NCBI GenBank assembly: GCA_947495075.1
Contig: CANLXH010000002.1
Location: forward strand, 806,001-870,000
Reading direction: 5' to 3'
Length of the DNA: 64,000 bases
Origin: an uncultured Croceitalea sp.
GTDB taxonomy: Bacteria > Bacteroidota > Bacteroidia > Flavobacteriales > Flavobacteriaceae
Shown here: piece by piece, positions 39,802 to 48,526 of the stretch
How the letters are laid out: every line of letters starts with the position of its first letter
How positions within the stretch are numbered: the stretch's first letter is position 1
Notes under the pieces: model-generated
Databases searched by the model: none
Told to the model about the DNA's origin: nothing
Seen by the model: the letters and a program-made list of their open reading frames with translations, nothing else
Translations under genes and position numbers: made by a program

Positions 39802-42216
39802 ATGCGCAATGTAGTTCTTAGTTTATTTCTACTCTTTATTTCTATAGCAGCAAAGGGACAGCAAGTAATTGTTTTGGATGCTAATTCTGGAAATACAATA
39901 GTTAATGTTGCCGTATTTAATCAAGACAAGTCTAAAACAGCAGTTACAGATTTTGACGGAAAATGCGACCTTTCCATATTTGAGAAAAATGAACGAATAA
40001 CCTTTAAACATATAAGCTACGAAGCTTTTAAAACTTCCCGAGCCCAAATAGTAAAAAGAGGTAATAACGTTTATTTAAATCTTAAAGCAGAACAATTAGA
40101 TGAGGTGGTCATGTCTGTTTCTAAATGGGAACAGCAGCGTAAAGATGTACCGCAAAAAATAGTATCTATAGATGCCAGAAGTATTGCTTTCACCAATCCG
40201 CAAACATCTGCGGATCTTTTACAGAATAGTGGAAAAGTCTTTGTGCAAAAAAGTCAATTAGGCGGTGGTAGTCCTTTAATTAGAGGTTTTGCTACTAATA
40301 GGCTATTACTTTCTGTAGATGGTGTGCGTATGAACAATGCTATTTTTAGAGGGGGAAATGTCCAAAATGTGATTTCTATAGACCCCTTTACTATAAAGAA
40401 TACCGAAGTTATTTTTGGTCCAGGTTCTGTTATTTATGGAAGTGATGCTATAGGTGGAGTAATGAATTTCTTCACGCAGGACCCTAGATTTTCGTATACA
40501 GATAGCCTCACTTTTTCAGGTAAAGTAGACTACCGTTTTGCATCGGCAAATTTAGAAAATACGGTTCATGTAGATTTTAATATAGGACATCAAACATGGG
40601 CAAGTTATACCAGTTTTACCTACAATAGTTTTGATGATTTAAGAATGGGAGAACACGGTCCGGATTCTTACTTGCGGAATAACTTTGTAGTTCGGGAAAA
40701 TGGGCAAGACGTGTTAATGGCAAATTCTAACCCTAAAAGACAAGTTGAAACTGGTTACAATCAAATTAATTTCCTACAAAAATTTAGATATAAGCCCAAT
40801 AAAAATTGGAACTACGATTTAGGTTTGTATTATTCAGAAACTTCAGACTATTCAAGATATGACCGGTTAATTAGACCTAATAATGATGGTGAAGGGCTTC
40901 GCTCTGCCGAATGGTTTTATGGCCCTCAAAAATGGTTTATGGCTAATTTTCAAGCCACTCAAAAAGGGAAAAATAGGTTTTATGACCGGTTAAAAATTAC
41001 TACTGCTTATCAATTTTTTGAAGAAAGTAGAAATAGTAGAAATTTTCAAGACCTTATCCGCAACACAACAACCGAGCAAGTAGATGCACTTTCTTTAAAT
41101 CTTGATTTTGAAAATAAAAAGATTGGAAACCTACGGTTGTACTACGGCGCAGAATATATTTTTAATAAGATAGGTTCTATTGGGCAAAACCTAAATATTG
41201 AAACCAATGCAATTTCTGGAGCAGTTTCTAGGCATCCAGATGGGTCTACATGGCAAACTTTAGCAGGGTATATAAATGGAGAATATCAAATTAAACCAAA
41301 CCTTACCATATTATCAGGATTAAGATATAGTCAAGTCTACGCTAGCGCAGATTTTGACACAACTTTTTTTCCTTTCCCTTTTGAGGAGGCAGATGTTAGC
41401 TCTGGAGCCCTTACAGGAAGTTTGGGGGTTAGTTGGTTTCCTAAGGCAGATTTGCAAATAACACTAAACGGTTCTACAGGATTTAGGGCGCCTAATATAG
41501 ATGATATTGGAAAAGTATTTGATTCTGAACCTGGCTCTGTGGTAGTTCCAAATCCAGATTTGGTTTCGGAATATGCATATAATGGAGAACTAGGAATACG
41601 TAAAAACTTCAATGATAAAGTAGTTTTGAAAGGAGCTACTTTTTATACCTATTTGGTAGATGCTTTGGTGCGTAGAGATTTTGAGTTTAATGGACAGTCT
41701 GAAATTGAATTCAATGGCGAACTAAGCAATGTACAGGCCATACAGAATGCAGCCAAAGCCTATGTATATGGTTTTGAGTTTGGGATAGAAGCTTTTATGA
41801 ATGAGAATTGGTCTTTTTTAGGGAACCTAACTTTAACAGAAGGTGTAGAGGAAGATGATGATGGTACAGATTCTGCAGCACGCCATGTTGCACCAACTTT
41901 TGCAGATGCCCATATAGTTTGGAAAAACCAAAAATGGAAAGCAGATTTTTTTGTGAATTACAATGGAGAAATCCCTTTTGAAGATTTAGCGATTTCTGAA
42001 CGTAACAAGCCTTTTATTTATGCACAAGATGAAAATGGGAATCCTTTTTCACCTTCTTGGTATACGCTAAACTTTCGTTCGCAATATCAAATTTCCAATG
42101 CTTTAAAGGCTACATTAAGTTTGGAGAACATAACTAACCAAAGATATCGTACCTACTCTTCTGGTATAGTTGCTCCTGGTGCAAATTTGATTTTAGGATT
42201 GGGGTATAAATTTTAA
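39802..42216 (+). CDS. TonB-dependent receptor, heme/hemoglobin-receptor type
   Basis: 804 residues from the ATG at 39802, giving signal peptide M-R-N-V-V-L-S-L-F-L-L-F-I-S-I-A-A-K-G-Q. A carboxypeptidase-regulatory-like domain comes first (about 20-100), then plug and beta-barrel. The plug segment G-G-S-P-L-I-R-G-F-A-T-N-R-L-L-L-S-V-D-G and the final beta strand ending K-F fit TonB-dependent receptors. The plug style resembles hemoglobin/heme receptors, but no heme-handling gene is near, so the ligand is an inference. Directly follows recO. Confidence 0.88.
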   Translation: MRNVVLSLFLLFISIAAKGQQVIVLDANSGNTIVNVAVFNQDKSKTAVTDFDGKCDLSIFEKNERITFKHISYEAFKTSRAQIVKRGNNVYLNLKAEQLDEVVMSVSKWEQQRKDVPQKIVSIDARSIAFTNPQTSADLLQNSGKVFVQKSQLGGGSPLIRGFATNRLLLSVDGVRMNNAIFRGGNVQNVISIDPFTIKNTEVIFGPGSVIYGSDAIGGVMNFFTQDPRFSYTDSLTFSGKVDYRFASANLENTVHVDFNIGHQTWASYTSFTYNSFDDLRMGEHGPDSYLRNNFVVRENGQDVLMANSNPKRQVETGYNQINFLQKFRYKPNKNWNYDLGLYYSETSDYSRYDRLIRPNNDGEGLRSAEWFYGPQKWFMANFQATQKGKNRFYDRLKITTAYQFFEESRNSRNFQDLIRNTTTEQVDALSLNLDFENKKIGNLRLYYGAEYIFNKIGSIGQNLNIETNAISGAVSRHPDGSTWQTLAGYINGEYQIKPNLTILSGLRYSQVYASADFDTTFFPFPFEEADVSSGALTGSLGVSWFPKADLQITLNGSTGFRAPNIDDIGKVFDSEPGSVVVPNPDLVSEYAYNGELGIRKNFNDKVVLKGATFYTYLVDALVRRDFEFNGQSEIEFNGELSNVQAIQNAAKAYVYGFEFGIEAFMNENWSFLGNLTLTEGVEEDDDGTDSAARHVAPTFADAHIVWKNQKWKADFFVNYNGEIPFEDLAISERNKPFIYAQDENGNPFSPSWYTLNFRSQYQISNALKATLSLENITNQRYRTYSSGIVAPGANLILGLGYKF

Positions 42217-42220
42217 AAAC

Positions 42221-42252
42221 AAAAACCCCAACCAATAAAGGCCAGGGTTTTT
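42221..42252 (+). terminator. Intrinsic terminator of the TonB-receptor gene
   Basis: AAAAACCC, 16-nt loop with a small inner CC/GG pair, GGGTTTTT. It lies between convergent genes. Confidence 0.75.
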
Positions 42253-42274
42253 AAATGATTTGGAACAAAAGTGT

Positions 42275-42664
42275 TTAGTGGTCGTCTGTAGCTTCCTCTA
42301 CTTCTTTTGCTGCTTTATTAGCGGCGTCTTTTACTTCATCACCAGCTTTGTTCATTGCGTCTTTAGCGTCAGCGCCCATTTTTTCAGCACCTTCTTTAAG
42401 GTTTTCACCTGCTTTTTTAATACTATCCATAGCTTTTTCAGCACCTTCTTTCATTTCTTCACCTGCTTCTTTCATCTCATCACCTACCTCTTTAGCAGCA
42501 TCTTTTAAATCTTCGCCTGCTTCTTTAATGTTATCGCCAGCTTCTTCTAATGCACTTTCTGTTGCCTCAGCGGCGTCTTCAGCTTTCTTCTCTGCTTCTT
42601 TACAAGAAGTCAAAACAGAAGCTGTCATTGATAGTGCCAATACGGCTAAAAATACTTTTTTCAT
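42275..42664 (-). CDS. LEA-like amphipathic repeat lipoprotein
   Basis: 129 residues. The signal ends L-T-S-C (Cys21), a lipobox. After it comes almost pure Lys/Glu/Ala/Asp/Gly, built from 11-residue-like units of the type K-E-A-G-E-x-M/L-K-E/D-G/A-A. These form amphipathic helices like group 3 LEA or apolipoprotein-type proteins. Such repeats are associated with desiccation, freeze or membrane stress in other systems; the role here is inferred. Ends D-D-H. Confidence 0.8.
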   Translation of the reverse strand: MKKVFLAVLALSMTASVLTSCKEAEKKAEDAAEATESALEEAGDNIKEAGEDLKDAAKEVGDEMKEAGEEMKEGAEKAMDSIKKAGENLKEGAEKMGADAKDAMNKAGDEVKDAANKAAKEVEEATDDH

Positions 42665-42792
42665 TTTAATAGTTTTTGTGTTTGTTATTGTATAGATACG
42701 CTTAAAAACAAGATTTAGATGTAAATCTCTAAATAGTAGACACCTTATTTGTATTTAAGTCACTGAATGCTATCCAATTCAGTCTAAATTTT

Positions 42793-42800
42793 TATTTTTG
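42793..42800 (+). promoter_or_regulatory. -7 promoter element TATTTTTG for ileS
   Basis: Exact TAnnTTTG, 30 bp before the ATG at 42831. It overlaps the longer alternative start at 42798 and rules that start out. Confidence 0.6.
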
Positions 42801-42830
42801 CAAACTTGGAATTCTAGAAGCCAAAGGGAT

Positions 42831-45800
42831 ATGAAGTTTGCAGAATATAAGGGATTAGATTTACCAAAAGTTGCTGATAAGGTTTTAGACTACTGGAAGG
42901 AGAACAACATCTTTGAAAAAAGTGTCTCTACTAGGGAGGGTAAGCCTAGCTATGTCTTTTATGAAGGGCCACCTTCCGCAAACGGAATGCCAGGGATTCA
43001 CCATGTAATGGCACGTACGATAAAAGATATTTTTCCTAGGTATAAAACCATGAAAGGCTTTCAAGTAAAGCGCAAAGCAGGTTGGGATACCCACGGCTTA
43101 CCTATTGAGCTTGGTGTTGAAAAGGAATTGGGAATTACTAAAGAAGATATTGGCAAGAAAATTTCTGTTGAGGAATACAATGCAGCTTGTAAAAAGGCTG
43201 TAATGCGTTATACAGATGTTTGGAATGAAATGACTGAGAAAGTAGGGTATTGGGTAGATATGGATGACCCGTACATCACCTACAAGTCTAAATACATGGA
43301 ATCTGTTTGGTGGTTGCTAAAGCAGATTTATGATAAGGGATTAATTTATAAAGGCTATACAATTCAACCGTATTCCCCTAAGGCTGGAACAGGACTTAGT
43401 TCGCATGAACTAAATCAGCCAGGAACCTATCAAGATGTTACGGACACCACAGTTACGGCTCAGTTTAAAGCTGTTGAAAATTCCTTGCCGGAATTCTTAA
43501 AAAGGTTCGACCATTTGCATTTTCTAGCCTGGACGACCACACCTTGGACTTTGCCAAGTAATACAGCACTAACTGTAGGTTCTAAAATTGATTATGTGGT
43601 TGTAGCGACATACAATCAATACACTTTTGAACCTATTCATGTGATTCTAGCTAAAAACTTAGTTGGAAAACAATTCGGCGGAAAATTCTACGAAACAACG
43701 GAGGTTTCAGAGCTTTCTGGCTATTCAAAAGCGGATAAAAAAATACCATATTTAATTGCTACGGAGTGCAAAGGGTCAGATTTGTTAGAGATTAAATACG
43801 AGCAATTAATAGATTATGCCTCACCATATAAAAATGCAGAGAATGCTTTTCGTGTAATCGCTGGTGATTTTGTTACTACAGAAGATGGTACTGGTATTGT
43901 ACATACAGCGCCAACCTTTGGTGCAGATGATGCTTTGGTAGCCAAACAGGCAAAACCAGAAGTGCCTCCTTTGTTGGTTTTAGACGAGAATAAAAATCCG
44001 GTTCCACTGGTAGATTTGCAAGGCAAGTTTAGACCTGAACTTAAAGAGTTTGGGGGTAAGTATGTAAAGAACGAATATTATAATGATGGTGACGCCCCTG
44101 AGCGTTCTATAGATGTAGAAATTGCCATCAAACTAAAAGAAGAAAACAAAGCGTTTAAAGTTGAAAAGTACGTGCACAGCTACCCAAATTGTTGGCGTAC
44201 AGACAAACCTATTTTATATTATCCGTTAGATTCTTGGTTTATTAAAGTAACAGACATTAAGGACCGTATGTTCGAATTGAACCAAACCATTAACTGGAAA
44301 CCAAAATCTACTGGCGATGGTCGCTTTGGAAACTGGTTGGCCAATGCAAATGATTGGAATCTTTCGCGTTCTCGGTATTGGGGTATTCCATTACCTATCT
44401 GGCGTACAGAAGATGGTACAGAGCAACTAATGATTGGTTCTGTAGCAGAATTGAAGACTGAAATGGCAAAAGCTATTGAAGCTGGAGTTCTAGAAAAGGA
44501 TATTTTCGAAGATTTTGTAGTTGGTGATATGAGTGAAGCTAACTATGATAGAATAGATTTGCACAAGAACATTGTTGACCAAATCACCTTAGTTTCTGCT
44601 TCAGGAAAACCAATGAAACGAGAGTCTGACCTAATTGATGTTTGGTTCGATAGTGGTTCTATGCCCTATGCACAATGGCATTATCCTTTTGAGAACAAAG
44701 ATTTTATAGATAATAATAAAACCTTTCCTGCAGATTTTATTGCAGAAGGGGTAGATCAAACTAGAGGTTGGTTTTACACCTTGCACGCTATAGGAACCAT
44801 GGTTTTTGATTCTGTAACATACAAGAATGTAGTTTCTAACGGGCTTGTACTTGACAAGGAAGGCAAGAAAATGTCTAAACGTTTAGGAAATGCCGTAGAC
44901 CCATTTGTAACCTTACCGGAACATGGTGCTGATGCCACACGTTGGTATATGATTTCTAATGCCAATCCTTGGGATAATTTAAAGTTTGATACTGATGGTA
45001 TTATTGAGGTTAAACGTAAGTTTTTTGGCACGCTTTACAACACATATTCGTTTTTCTCTCTCTATGCAAATATTGATAATTTCACTTATTCAGAGGAAGA
45101 GATAGCCTTAGCGGATAGACCAGAGTTGGATCAGTGGATTCTTTCAGAATTAAATACGATTATCCAGAAAGTAGATGAGGCATATAACGAATATGAACCT
45201 ACAAGAGCTGCTAGAGTAATATCGGATTTTGTGCAAGAGAATTTGAGCAACTGGTATGTACGTTTAAGTAGAAGACGTTTCTGGAAAGGAGATTATCAGC
45301 ATGATAAAATTTCTGCTTACCAAACTTTATATACTTGTCTGCAAACGGTTGCAAAACTATCGGCTCCAATTGCACCATTCTTTATGGATAGCTTGTACAA
45401 AGATTTAGATGCAGTAACTGGTAAAGAAAGTTTTGAGAGTGTGCATTTGGCAAACTTTCCGGAGTATGATGCTTCAGTTGTAGATGTGAGTTTAGAGAAT
45501 AAAATGCAAACGGCGCAAAAGATTTCATCATTGGTTTTATCTATTCGCCAGAAAGAAAAAATAAAAGTACGTCAGCCATTACAAAAGATAATGGTACCTG
45601 TTTTAAATGAAGCACAACGTGATGAGATTGAAGCAGTAGCGGAACTTATTAAATCTGAAGTTAATGTCAAGGAAATAGACTTAATGGATGATGCATCAGA
45701 AATTCTAGTGAAGCAAATAAAACCAAATTTTAAAGTTTTAGGACCTAAATTTGGTAAGGATATGAAAACTGTTGCGAACGTAATTAATGGATTGCAGCAG

Positions 45801-46229
45801 GAAGACATCCAAAAAATAGAACAAGAAGGCGAATTAACACTACAATTAGATAATAAAAGTATTAATTTACAGTTGTCAGATGTAGAAATAACCTCTCAAG
45901 ATATAGAGGGTTGGCTGGTAGCAAGTTCAGGTCCCTTAACAGTGGCATTAGACATTACTATCGATGAAAACCTAAAAAATGAGGGTATTGCTAGAGAATT
46001 GGTTAATCGAATTCAAAATTTGAGAAAGGAATCAGGTTTTGAGGTGACAGATAAAATCAACCTTAGAATATTAAAAGATGGTCTTATAGAAAAGGCCATT
46101 GCTAGTAATGAGAATTATTTAAAAAGTGAAACACTAACCGCAGAACTAAAATATGAAGAACGTTTAGAGGAAGGCACGGAAATTGCTTTCGATGACGTGA
46201 ATACTAAATTGTTTATCCAAAAACATTAA
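42831..46229 (+). CDS. ileS: Isoleucyl-tRNA synthetase (IleRS2-like, swapped HIGH motif)
   Basis: 1132 residues from M-K-F-A-E-Y-K-G-L; the frame from 42798 overlaps the promoter. The enzyme charges tRNA-Ile. Visible are E-G-P-P-S-A-N-G (45-52), the editing insert with T-T-P-W-T-L-P-S-N, W-D-T-H-G-L-P, and K-M-S-K-R (680-684). In place of H-I-G-H the sequence reads G-I-H-H at residues 55-58. Length and this swap point to the type 2 (eukaryote-like) branch. The DksA-like gene starts 2 bp later, so co-transcription is likely. Confidence 0.95.
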   Translation: MKFAEYKGLDLPKVADKVLDYWKENNIFEKSVSTREGKPSYVFYEGPPSANGMPGIHHVMARTIKDIFPRYKTMKGFQVKRKAGWDTHGLPIELGVEKELGITKEDIGKKISVEEYNAACKKAVMRYTDVWNEMTEKVGYWVDMDDPYITYKSKYMESVWWLLKQIYDKGLIYKGYTIQPYSPKAGTGLSSHELNQPGTYQDVTDTTVTAQFKAVENSLPEFLKRFDHLHFLAWTTTPWTLPSNTALTVGSKIDYVVVATYNQYTFEPIHVILAKNLVGKQFGGKFYETTEVSELSGYSKADKKIPYLIATECKGSDLLEIKYEQLIDYASPYKNAENAFRVIAGDFVTTEDGTGIVHTAPTFGADDALVAKQAKPEVPPLLVLDENKNPVPLVDLQGKFRPELKEFGGKYVKNEYYNDGDAPERSIDVEIAIKLKEENKAFKVEKYVHSYPNCWRTDKPILYYPLDSWFIKVTDIKDRMFELNQTINWKPKSTGDGRFGNWLANANDWNLSRSRYWGIPLPIWRTEDGTEQLMIGSVAELKTEMAKAIEAGVLEKDIFEDFVVGDMSEANYDRIDLHKNIVDQITLVSASGKPMKRESDLIDVWFDSGSMPYAQWHYPFENKDFIDNNKTFPADFIAEGVDQTRGWFYTLHAIGTMVFDSVTYKNVVSNGLVLDKEGKKMSKRLGNAVDPFVTLPEHGADATRWYMISNANPWDNLKFDTDGIIEVKRKFFGTLYNTYSFFSLYANIDNFTYSEEEIALADRPELDQWILSELNTIIQKVDEAYNEYEPTRAARVISDFVQENLSNWYVRLSRRRFWKGDYQHDKISAYQTLYTCLQTVAKLSAPIAPFFMDSLYKDLDAVTGKESFESVHLANFPEYDASVVDVSLENKMQTAQKISSLVLSIRQKEKIKVRQPLQKIMVPVLNEAQRDEIEAVAELIKSEVNVKEIDLMDDASEILVKQIKPNFKVLGPKFGKDMKTVANVINGLQQEDIQKIEQEGELTLQLDNKSINLQLSDVEITSQDIEGWLVASSGPLTVALDITIDENLKNEGIARELVNRIQNLRKESGFEVTDKINLRILKDGLIEKAIASNENYLKSETLTAELKYEERLEEGTEIAFDDVNTKLFIQKH

Positions 46230-46231
46230 AA

Positions 46232-46615
46232 ATGGCAGAAGATTTAAAAGTAAGATACTCAGATAAAGACCTTGGGGAGTTCAAGGATTTAATCGAAGAA
46301 AAAATAGAAAAAGCAAAAAATCATTTAGAGTTGTTAAAGAGTGCTTATATGAATGATGGTAATAATGGTACAGATGATACCTCACCAACATTTAAAGCTT
46401 TTGAGGAAGGCTCTGCGACTATGAGCAAAGAAGCTAATACACAATTAGCTATTCGCCAAGAAAAGTTTATTCGTGATTTAAAGAATGCTTTACTTAGAAT
46501 TGAAAATAAGACTTATGGTATTTGTAGAGTTACGGGTAAGCTTATAAATAAAGAACGGCTAAAATTAGTTCCGCATGCTACATTAAGCATAGAGGCTAAG
46601 AATATGCAAAAATAA
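46232..46615 (+). CDS. DksA/TraR-family protein with degenerate zinc finger
   Basis: 127 residues. N-terminal coiled coil (about 10-45) and a C-terminal part Y-G-I-C-R-V-T-G-K-L-I-N-K-E-R-L, which is the DksA/TraR zinc-finger region. Only one Cys (Cys98) remains of the usual four, so it does not bind zinc in the classical way. This variant is typical of Bacteroidota. DksA proteins modify RNA polymerase at rRNA and amino-acid promoters. Two bp after ileS and followed by a strong terminator. Confidence 0.85.
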   Translation: MAEDLKVRYSDKDLGEFKDLIEEKIEKAKNHLELLKSAYMNDGNNGTDDTSPTFKAFEEGSATMSKEANTQLAIRQEKFIRDLKNALLRIENKTYGICRVTGKLINKERLKLVPHATLSIEAKNMQK

Positions 46616-46618
46616 CTA

Positions 46619-46640
46619 AAGCGCCTTAGGGCGTTTTTTT
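46619..46640 (+). terminator. Intrinsic terminator after the DksA-like gene
   Basis: AAGCGCC, TTAG loop, GGCG and then T7. It ends right before the next gene. Confidence 0.88.
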
Positions 46641-46644
46641 GTTG

Positions 46645-47268
46645 ATGAAAGTTTTATACTCTTTTCTGCTTTTTTTAGTTTCCACGCAGTTTATAACAGG
46701 GCAAAAAGTAATTCGTAAGACAATTATTAACCCCGAAAACCAATCTATACAGCTTGATGCCGAAAATTGCTATCAAGTTATATTGGAAACCTCTAAAAAT
46801 AGAGAGTTAATAGTTAAAGCGGAGATAGAAGGAGAGTATCAAAAAGACTTAGTCGTAAAAATTGAAGAAGATGGTTCTAACGTCTTAGTAAGTACAGACT
46901 TCCTACCTAATTTTATTGCTCCTAATGATAAACTCAGTGCACACAAGGTTATTTCGATTGCACTTAAAATAATAATACCTGAATACTGTGTGGTAAATGT
47001 TTTTGGAACTAATAGTAAAGTACAAGCCACAGGCATTTATAAGAATCTAAAGATAAGTTTAGACACAGGGAATTGTGTGCTTAATAATGTTATTGAAAGT
47101 GCAGAGGTTAAAACCCAAAGGGGAACAATAACTATAGTAACAAGGGAAGGGAAAGTAGATGCCGAAAGTATTTATGGAATTGTAAAACTATCTGAAATCC
47201 CTGAGGGTAATTCCAGATATAAACTTGCATCTGTAGAGGGAAACATCTACGTTAAGAAAACCGAATAA
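46645..47268 (+). CDS. Exported beta-rich protein of unknown function
   Basis: 207 residues from the ATG at 46645, only 5 bp after the upstream terminator. Signal peptide M-K-V-L-Y-S-F-L-L-F-L-V-S-T-Q-F-I-T-G. The mature part has repeated strands with N-V-F-G-T-N-S-K-V and K-T-Q-R-G-T-I-T-I, and resembles the single-stranded beta-helix of DUF4097-type proteins. No catalytic motif. The short distance to the terminator suggests readthrough or a promoter inside the dksA-like gene. Confidence 0.7.
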   Translation: MKVLYSFLLFLVSTQFITGQKVIRKTIINPENQSIQLDAENCYQVILETSKNRELIVKAEIEGEYQKDLVVKIEEDGSNVLVSTDFLPNFIAPNDKLSAHKVISIALKIIIPEYCVVNVFGTNSKVQATGIYKNLKISLDTGNCVLNNVIESAEVKTQRGTITIVTREGKVDAESIYGIVKLSEIPEGNSRYKLASVEGNIYVKKTE

Positions 47269-47274
47269 TATGGC

Positions 47275-47282
47275 TATTTTTG
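47275..47282 (+). promoter_or_regulatory. -7 promoter element TATTTTTG for lspA
   Basis: Exact TAnnTTTG, 19 bp before the ATG at 47302. Confidence 0.55.
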
Positions 47283-47301
47283 CCGAATCTATTCACTAGA
47301 A

Positions 47302-47931
47302 ATGAATTTAAAAAAATCTATTTTACTTATCGTTTTGATTCTGGTAGTTGACCAACTAAGTAAGATATACATTAAAACAAATTTTGTTTTAGGAGAATCT
47401 GTACAAGTATTTAGCTGGTTTAAAATTCTTTTTATAGAAAATGAAGGTGCTGCGTGGGGAACAAAGCTTAGTGATATTCTGCCAATTTCAGAATCTTTAG
47501 GAAAGTTATTTTTAACCATTTTCCGGTTGTTTGCAATTTTTGGTATTGGATACTGGTTATTTGATATTATTAAAAAACAATCTCCTAAAGTTTTAATACT
47601 AGCCGTATCATTAATATTTGCTGGAGCCTTAGGAAATATAATTGATTCTGTTTTATATGGGCTATTATTTAATGATAGTAATAACCAAGTTGCAGAATTG
47701 TTTTCTAACGAGCCTTACGGTAAGCTCTTTTATGGTAAAGTTGTAGACATGCTTTACTTTCCTATGATTGATACTACTTGGCCAGAATGGGTACCTAGTT
47801 TGGGAGGAAAGAGTTTCAGATTTTTTGAACCTATTTTTAATATAGCAGATACAGCAATAAGCACAGGAGTTGGGATTCTAATTTTTTTTAATAAAAAGGC
47901 TTTCGCAAAACTTAAAAATCAAAACTCGTAA
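47302..47931 (+). CDS. lspA: Lipoprotein signal peptidase (type II)
   Basis: 209 residues, about 40 longer than the common enzyme. Four membrane helices are present. The catalytic Asp pair is Asp149 (V-V-D-M) and Asp183 (F-N-I-A-D-T-A-I), with conserved N-E-G-A-A-W-G (47-53) and G-N-I-I-D-S. The extra residues lie mainly between 120 and 175. It cleaves the signal peptide of prolipoproteins after lipidation. Many lipoproteins in this window would be its substrates. It overlaps the folate cyclo-ligase end by 13 bp. Confidence 0.95.
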   Translation: MNLKKSILLIVLILVVDQLSKIYIKTNFVLGESVQVFSWFKILFIENEGAAWGTKLSDILPISESLGKLFLTIFRLFAIFGIGYWLFDIIKKQSPKVLILAVSLIFAGALGNIIDSVLYGLLFNDSNNQVAELFSNEPYGKLFYGKVVDMLYFPMIDTTWPEWVPSLGGKSFRFFEPIFNIADTAISTGVGILIFFNKKAFAKLKNQNS

Positions 47932-48479
47932 ATCTTATTTGGCGTAACGCAATAGTTTAAGGGAATATCATTACTGGAAACACCATCTATTTTTTCTTCA
48001 GCTTCAAAAAAGGATAATCCAATTTTAATTACTCCAGGGTTACATTTTTTAAGGAAATTATCGTAAAATCCTTTTCCGTAGCCAACACGATTACCAGATA
48101 AATCAAATGCTAATAATGGGACAAACACAACTTCAATTTGGTTATCATTAATTACAATTCCATCTTCAGGTTCTGGAATATTCCACTTACTTTTTCTAAA
48201 TACGGTGTTATCTGTAAGTAAGTAGTTTTGGACTTCATCTTCCGATACTACTTTAGGAATAATAACATTCTTATCTTTTCCTTGTAGTAGCGTAAGCAAG
48301 TAAGAGGTGTCTATCTCTTTGCTTTCTGTTATGGTGAGGAAAATATGGTAATATGAAATACTCCAAATATTCATTTGGAGTATGTGATTAGAGATTTTTA
48401 AGCTCTTGCTTTGTATTGTATTGAAACTAAGACTTTCTCTTTTGTTTTTGTAGGTCTTTCTAAGTTCAATTTTATTCAT
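47919..48479 (-). CDS. 5-formyltetrahydrofolate cyclo-ligase
   Basis: 186 residues with the family core: R-x-x-Y-K-N-K-R at the N-terminus, V-F-V-P-L-L-A-F-D-L-S-G-N-R-V-G-Y-G-K-G-F-Y-D-N-F-L in the middle. This G-Y-G-K-G-F-Y-D motif is diagnostic. It converts 5-formyltetrahydrofolate to 5,10-methenyltetrahydrofolate with ATP. Converges on and overlaps lspA by 13 bp. A small ORF lies 47 bp upstream on the same strand. Confidence 0.93.
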   Translation of the reverse strand: MNKIELRKTYKNKRESLSFNTIQSKSLKISNHILQMNIWSISYYHIFLTITESKEIDTSYLLTLLQGKDKNVIIPKVVSEDEVQNYLLTDNTVFRKSKWNIPEPEDGIVINDNQIEVVFVPLLAFDLSGNRVGYGKGFYDNFLKKCNPGVIKIGLSFFEAEEKIDGVSSNDIPLNYCVTPNKIYEF

Positions 48480-48526
48480 CTAACTTTTTAAGATAGAAGA
48501 TACTGTGAGGCAGTTCTAGACAATAA

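Follow-up and report, generated by a model that had tools for sequence, protein, structure and literature searches.

An isoleucyl-tRNA synthetase (IleRS) with G-I-H-H at its first signature

The ileS gene in this stretch of DNA encodes G-I-H-H at a place where class I synthetases carry H-x-G-H, the HIGH position. We asked whether this reading is a genuine exchange in a working housekeeping enzyme, whether it sets this organism apart from its relatives, and what it would mean for sensitivity to mupirocin. Positions refer to the window, that is, the whole 64,000-nucleotide stretch that was analyzed. The features of the gene are as follows.

42831..46229, + strand: ileS, type 2 isoleucyl-tRNA synthetase (IleRS2) of 1132 amino acids (TIGR00392, 995.8 bits against a cut-off of 621.4; Pfam tRNA-synt_1, Anticodon_1, and DUF5915)
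42993..43004, + strand: G-I-H-H (GGG ATT CAC CAT) at the HxGH place, residues 55 to 58, aligned with HVGH of PDB 8c8u
44868..44882, + strand: second class I signature, residues 680 to 684, KMSKR and not KMSKS
45642..46223, + strand: C-terminal DUF5915 domain, residues 938 to 1131 (PF19302, 203.9 bits)

The open reading frame runs intact through 1132 codons, from the ATG at 42831 to a stop codon ending at 46229, and the motif stands in the context EGPPSANGMP-GIHH-VMARTIKD. The window protein aligned here without a gap to the IleRS2 of Priestia megaterium (PDB 8c8u), with GIHH exactly on HVGH; GIHH therefore occupies the HIGH position, with positions 1 and 3 exchanged. The bases at 42993 to 43004 and this alignment bear out the placement given in an earlier note on this DNA. 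The motif is genuine, and neither chance nor a sequencing slip, because GIHH also occurs in the genus's other five genomes, and GxHH in every one of 198 genomes sampled from the phylum.

The enzyme is of type 2 and is the only IleRS found in its genome

Comparison with IleRS1 and IleRS2, which the earlier note had proposed, separated the two types clearly. The window protein scored 799 to 810 bits by phmmer against four P. megaterium IleRS2 chains and 708 bits against Thermus thermophilus IleRS2, versus 309 to 318 bits against P. megaterium IleRS1 chains and 295 bits against Staphylococcus aureus IleRS1. The top-scoring chain was 8c8w (809.8 bits), a laboratory GVHH mutant of P. megaterium IleRS2. 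Four Pfam matches covered the class I core (two families), the anticodon-binding domain, and the C-terminal DUF5915, and no zinc-finger family was among them. The SD3 of IleRS2 lacks the zinc motif of IleRS1 (PMC10485003), and DUF5915 would correspond to this C-terminal region. By sequence the window enzyme is thus classed as an IleRS2: it is closer to IleRS2 than to IleRS1, and its C-terminal region is that of type 2, lacking the zinc-binding motif of IleRS1. Its GIHH also fits the pattern of the G/AXHH IleRS2 enzymes (G or A, a hydrophobic residue, H, and H at the HXGH place). The NCBIfam exception models for MupA and MupB (NF000257 and NF000258) scored 734.6 and 760.8 bits, below their cut-off of 1900.

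We scanned the genome that contains the window (3,726,017 bases in 15 contigs, 99.99% complete) with the ileS model. Ten rows had an E value of 0.001 or less, and the only one above the cut-off was the window gene itself, so the profile scan of the 15 contigs gave no second ileS. Eight of the nine rows below the cut-off were valyl- (two), leucyl- (four), and methionyl-tRNA synthetase (two); the ninth was a weak match on contig C1 (E = 5.4e-4, in a 497-amino-acid frame). The window gene is the only ileS found and is therefore the housekeeping enzyme, as the earlier note had supposed. The signatures of the other synthetases are HMGH in ValRS, HVGH in LeuRS (in a frame read to the locus end), and HIGH in MetRS. 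Of the four synthetases read here, IleRS alone carries the swap.

The motif is uniform across the sampled Bacteroidota

The phylum sample consisted of 198 genomes drawn evenly from Bacteroidota, the window genome included. GxHH was read in all 198, as GIHH in 141, GVHH in 55, and GMHH and GLHH in one each. A set of 80 named loci from a contig collection, all Bacteroidota by title except one "uncultured bacterium," gave the same picture: four of them start after residue 58, and the 76 that cover the motif all have GxHH (GIHH in 74, GVHH in 2). H-x-G-H was thus absent from the IleRS of the 198 genomes and the 76 loci; some species may occur in more than one of the genome, named-locus, and plasmid-record sets. 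These counts do not support the idea that a swapped motif in the housekeeping ileS sets this organism apart.

A match to ileS at an E value of 1e-120 or less was present in 197 of the 198 genomes, and none had two at that level; the top four candidates per genome were scored, so that a second ileS is excluded less strictly here than in the 55 genomes in which all candidates were scored and no second ileS passed the cut-off. The remaining genome (G176) has an ileS cut by a contig end, in which the motif could still be read. The single ileS of three genomes (G190, G057, and G103) appears as two stretches within one open frame. The ileS of another genome (G067, C5:3383-5968) has one internal TAG, which may reflect an error of sequencing, the genome being a draft.

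GIHH is also present in three ileS genes whose records are filed under plasmids, from Riemerella (101,897 bases), Parabacteroides (47,127 bases), and Bacteroides (61,688 bases). The genes on these records look chromosomal, and the records may be assembly pieces mislabelled as plasmids. A contig in a viral collection (IMGVR_UViG_3300038318_000483) carries a nearly full-length GxHH ileS whose product is 42% identical to the window protein across residues 13 to 1107, and it is perhaps a bacterial contig misfiled as viral.

Relatives outside the phylum and inheritance of the motif

Outside Bacteroidota, the evidence comes from a few records in the plasmid collection, where GxHH was found in Acetoanaerobium (Clostridia; GIHH) and in two Actinomycetota, Nonomuraea (GVHH) and Rhodococcus (GTHH). 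HxGH was found in Paenibacillus (HIGH), Sutcliffiella (HAGH), MupA (HTGH), and Escherichia coli IleRS1 (HIGH). The enzyme of pTML1, from Pseudoalteromonas sp. SANK 73390, is an IleRS2 that combines HHGH with KMSKR, and its branch in the tree is long. We take pTML1 to carry the thiomarinol genes, and its IleRS2 would presumably serve as the producer's self-protection.

A quick tree built from 59 rows placed all 50 rows of Bacteroidota in one group, with the window sequence among the Flavobacteriaceae and adjoining the rows of its genus-mate and its family. The HXGH enzymes of Bacilli formed a separate group together with MupA. The pTML1 enzyme joined the GxHH rows of Actinomycetota, a join flagged as a possible long-branch error. 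The tree has only 8 to 9 rows outside Bacteroidota, the branches of MupA and E. coli are long as well, and the root was placed for drawing only. The earlier note had named clustering with G-x-H-H IleRS2 proteins as support for its reading; in this tree GxHH was not a clean clade. We infer that the window organism did not gain the motif itself but received it by vertical descent from an ancestor no later than the base of Bacteroidota, mainly because the motif is so uniform, the tree being quick, with few outgroup rows and long branches.

The second signature and residue 672

The last position of the KMSKS signature also departs from the usual reading. In the window's class, presumably Bacteroidia to judge from the named tree rows, it is R in 44 and S in 5 of 49 genomes; in the rest of the phylum (149 genomes) it is S in 130, T in 9, R in 2, and K in 1, with 7 not read. 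KMSKR is therefore largely a class-level trait. At the adenine-facing residue 672, the GxHH rows (n = 201) have Leu in 192, His in 8, and Met in 1, and the HxGH rows (n = 5) have His in 3 and Ile and Phe in 1 each, counts in which the window appears twice, relatives are not independent, and the HxGH rows number only five.

Gene neighborhood and promoter

Downstream of ileS, the window contains the following.

46232..46615, + strand: DksA/TraR-like zinc-finger protein, starting 2 bases after the ileS stop (zf-dskA_traR, 30.8 bits)
46639-47268: open reading frame without a match in the Pfam scan, between the DksA-like gene and lspA
47302..47931, + strand: lspA, lipoprotein signal peptidase, one open reading frame after the DksA-like gene (Peptidase_A8, 116.5 bits)

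Coupling of ileS to the DksA-like gene is plausible because only 2 bases separate them. Annotations of the Riemerella, Parabacteroides, and Bacteroides records show the order ileS, DksA-like gene, lspA, with lspA directly after the DksA-like gene, whereas the window has the additional frame between them. Of the named loci, 68 have 900 bases or more of downstream sequence, and in 47 of these a DksA-type finger was found within 1.5 kb of ileS; the 21 loci without such a match could be true absences, long gaps, or failures of the pattern. The pattern for lspA was loose (36 of 68 loci) and was left out of the argument. The gene order common to the three genera and the frequency of the finger suggest that this neighborhood is probably old and not a new coupling.

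A promoter of its own, which the earlier note had ascribed to ileS, found no support. The region from 42660 to 46260 contained 8 sigma-70-like sites (11.1 expected), and none of the 8 lay upstream of the ileS ATG. A Bacteroidetes-type promoter pattern had one match in the window against 4.62 expected, at 1513 to 1544 on the other strand.

Predicted effect on mupirocin binding

Brkic et al. described the GXHH variant, together with its mechanism, in 2023 (PMC10485003); their set comprised 158 HXGH IleRS1, 77 HXGH IleRS2, and 86 G/AXHH IleRS2 enzymes and no swapped IleRS1. Changing ALHH of Deinococcus radiodurans IleRS2 to HVGH lowered the mupirocin Ki from 6.6 mM to 8.1 μM (about 823-fold). The reverse change from HVGH to GVHH raised it from 0.20 to 35 μM (about 175-fold) in T. 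thermophilus IleRS2 and from 1.08 to 460 μM (about 430-fold) in P. megaterium IleRS2 (PMC10485003; the fold changes are computed from its Table 1). Structures and a steric-clash model in that paper have the third His replace the first and clash with mupirocin, with Ki values up to the millimolar range. The IleRS of Streptomyces griseus has a mupirocin Ki of 10 mM, and the MIC is described as correlating well with IleRS type (PMC4861432).

The window protein aligns as an IleRS2 and has the motif class treated in PMC10485003, which sustains the link to hyper-resistance drawn in the earlier note. Extending the published work on relatives to the window enzyme, His57, at motif position 3, would take the catalytic place of the absent first His, a role attributed to a shifted tip of helix alpha1 in IleRS2. 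His57 would then clash with mupirocin, and the drug would be bound only at high-micromolar to millimolar concentrations. From the motif, we consider it likely that the window IleRS is hyper-resistant to mupirocin, and the organism may accordingly be intrinsically hyper-resistant. Full activity of the enzyme would not be guaranteed by the motif alone because the swap, when put into canonical IleRS2, leaves the enzyme active but lowers kcat/KM, with losses of up to 10-fold in kcat or KM (PMC10485003).

The nearest published phenotype found is that of Maribacter halichondriae Hal144T, a type strain in the Flavobacteriaceae recorded as resistant to a 200-unit mupirocin disc (PMC10942906), which could have other causes in a Gram-negative strain. 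For Candidatus Ornithobacterium hominis, also of the Flavobacteriaceae, isoleucyl-tRNA synthetase is entered under mupirocin in a list of resistance-related genes, in a passage that does not give the motif (PMC10835994). The portions of PMC7564983 and PMC9927545 consulted contain nothing on the mupirocin phenotype of Bacteroidota. The string "Bacteroid" is absent from the main text of PMC10485003, although its figure tree may mark Bacteroidota, and among titles and the starts of abstracts we found no paper on the GXHH motif in Bacteroidota.

Alternative explanations

A gene of this kind could have arrived by horizontal transfer as a mupirocin-resistance ileS2 like MupA of staphylococcal plasmids, which is itself of type 2 (IleRS2) and whose match to the window protein covers 98% of its length. 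However, MupA has HTGH and not GxHH and is only 36.6% identical to the window protein; the window gene lies in an ileS, DksA-like, lspA neighborhood resembling those of Riemerella, Parabacteroides, and Bacteroides, with the finger recurring in the named loci as counted above; and its nearest tree rows include sequences of its genus-mate and family. A megablast search of window positions 42000 to 48500 against 72,556 plasmid records gave no match, and the phylum-wide pattern (198 of 198) also speaks against a horizontal gain, which we regard as very improbable. Still less credible is a degenerate enzyme that has lost its catalytic motif while another enzyme charges isoleucine. IleRS1 of E. coli and P. 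megaterium, when mutated to GXHH, did yield no product (PMC10485003), but the window enzyme is an IleRS2, a type that remains active with GXHH, losing at most 10-fold in kcat or KM when the motif is introduced by mutation (PMC10485003). The intact 1132-codon frame, the lack of any other ileS found, and the retention of the motif throughout the phylum sample point the same way. Almost certainly, the window gene is the ordinary, sole housekeeping IleRS2 of a Flavobacteriaceae bacterium, with the G-x-H-H motif found in all Bacteroidota sampled; the His57 mechanism and vertical inheritance would go with it.

A further proposal concerns only the cause of the motif and is compatible with this best explanation. 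The swap may persist for a reason other than mupirocin, for example because the shifted helix alpha1 locked in what began as an ancestral accident, or because of a different inhibitor, with resistance as a by-product. We hold this to be possible but short of an even chance. GxHH occurs without reversion in every Bacteroidota genome read, whereas reversion is reported in Deinococcus-Thermus (PMC10485003); the authors of that paper, however, favor antibiotic selection as the cause of the swap. Tentatively, fixation of the swap could date to the root of Bacteroidota or earlier, with no reversion in any member read, the motif locked by its protein context and hyper-resistance a by-product of this entrenchment rather than of present drug selection. 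If so, a whole phylum would depend on a class I synthetase whose catalytic motif has been rewired, and in the window's class the second signature has usually changed too, to KMSKR.

Comparison with known IleRS enzymes

The window gene is typical of its phylum and an ordinary representative of an enzyme class already described, and the motif, the type, and the mechanism are in print. The present analysis makes two small additions, the uniformity of the motif in the sampled Bacteroidota and the KMSKR form in the window's class. Given this uniformity, mupirocin resistance at the level of the target is to be expected in the phylum, and the many natural GXHH enzymes, often with KMSKR, offer material for learning how the active site of a class I synthetase accommodates the exchange.

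Closest to the window enzyme are the G/AXHH IleRS2 proteins of S. griseus and D. radiodurans, likewise of type 2 with residues 1 and 3 of the motif swapped. They are the enzymes to which the published kinetics apply, and the D. radiodurans enzyme has ALHH, whereas the window has GIHH plus KMSKR. The HXGH IleRS2 enzymes (T. thermophilus 1ile, P. megaterium 8c8u, and staphylococcal MupA) are also of type 2 and align over most of their length, but they have the canonical motif and a lower mupirocin Ki (0.20 μM for T. thermophilus and 1.08 μM for P. megaterium). IleRS1 (E. coli and S. aureus 1ffy) has the class I catalytic core and the function in common with the window enzyme but differs in its C-terminal region, in its HXGH motif (158 of 158 in the published set), and in a mupirocin Ki that is nanomolar or lower.
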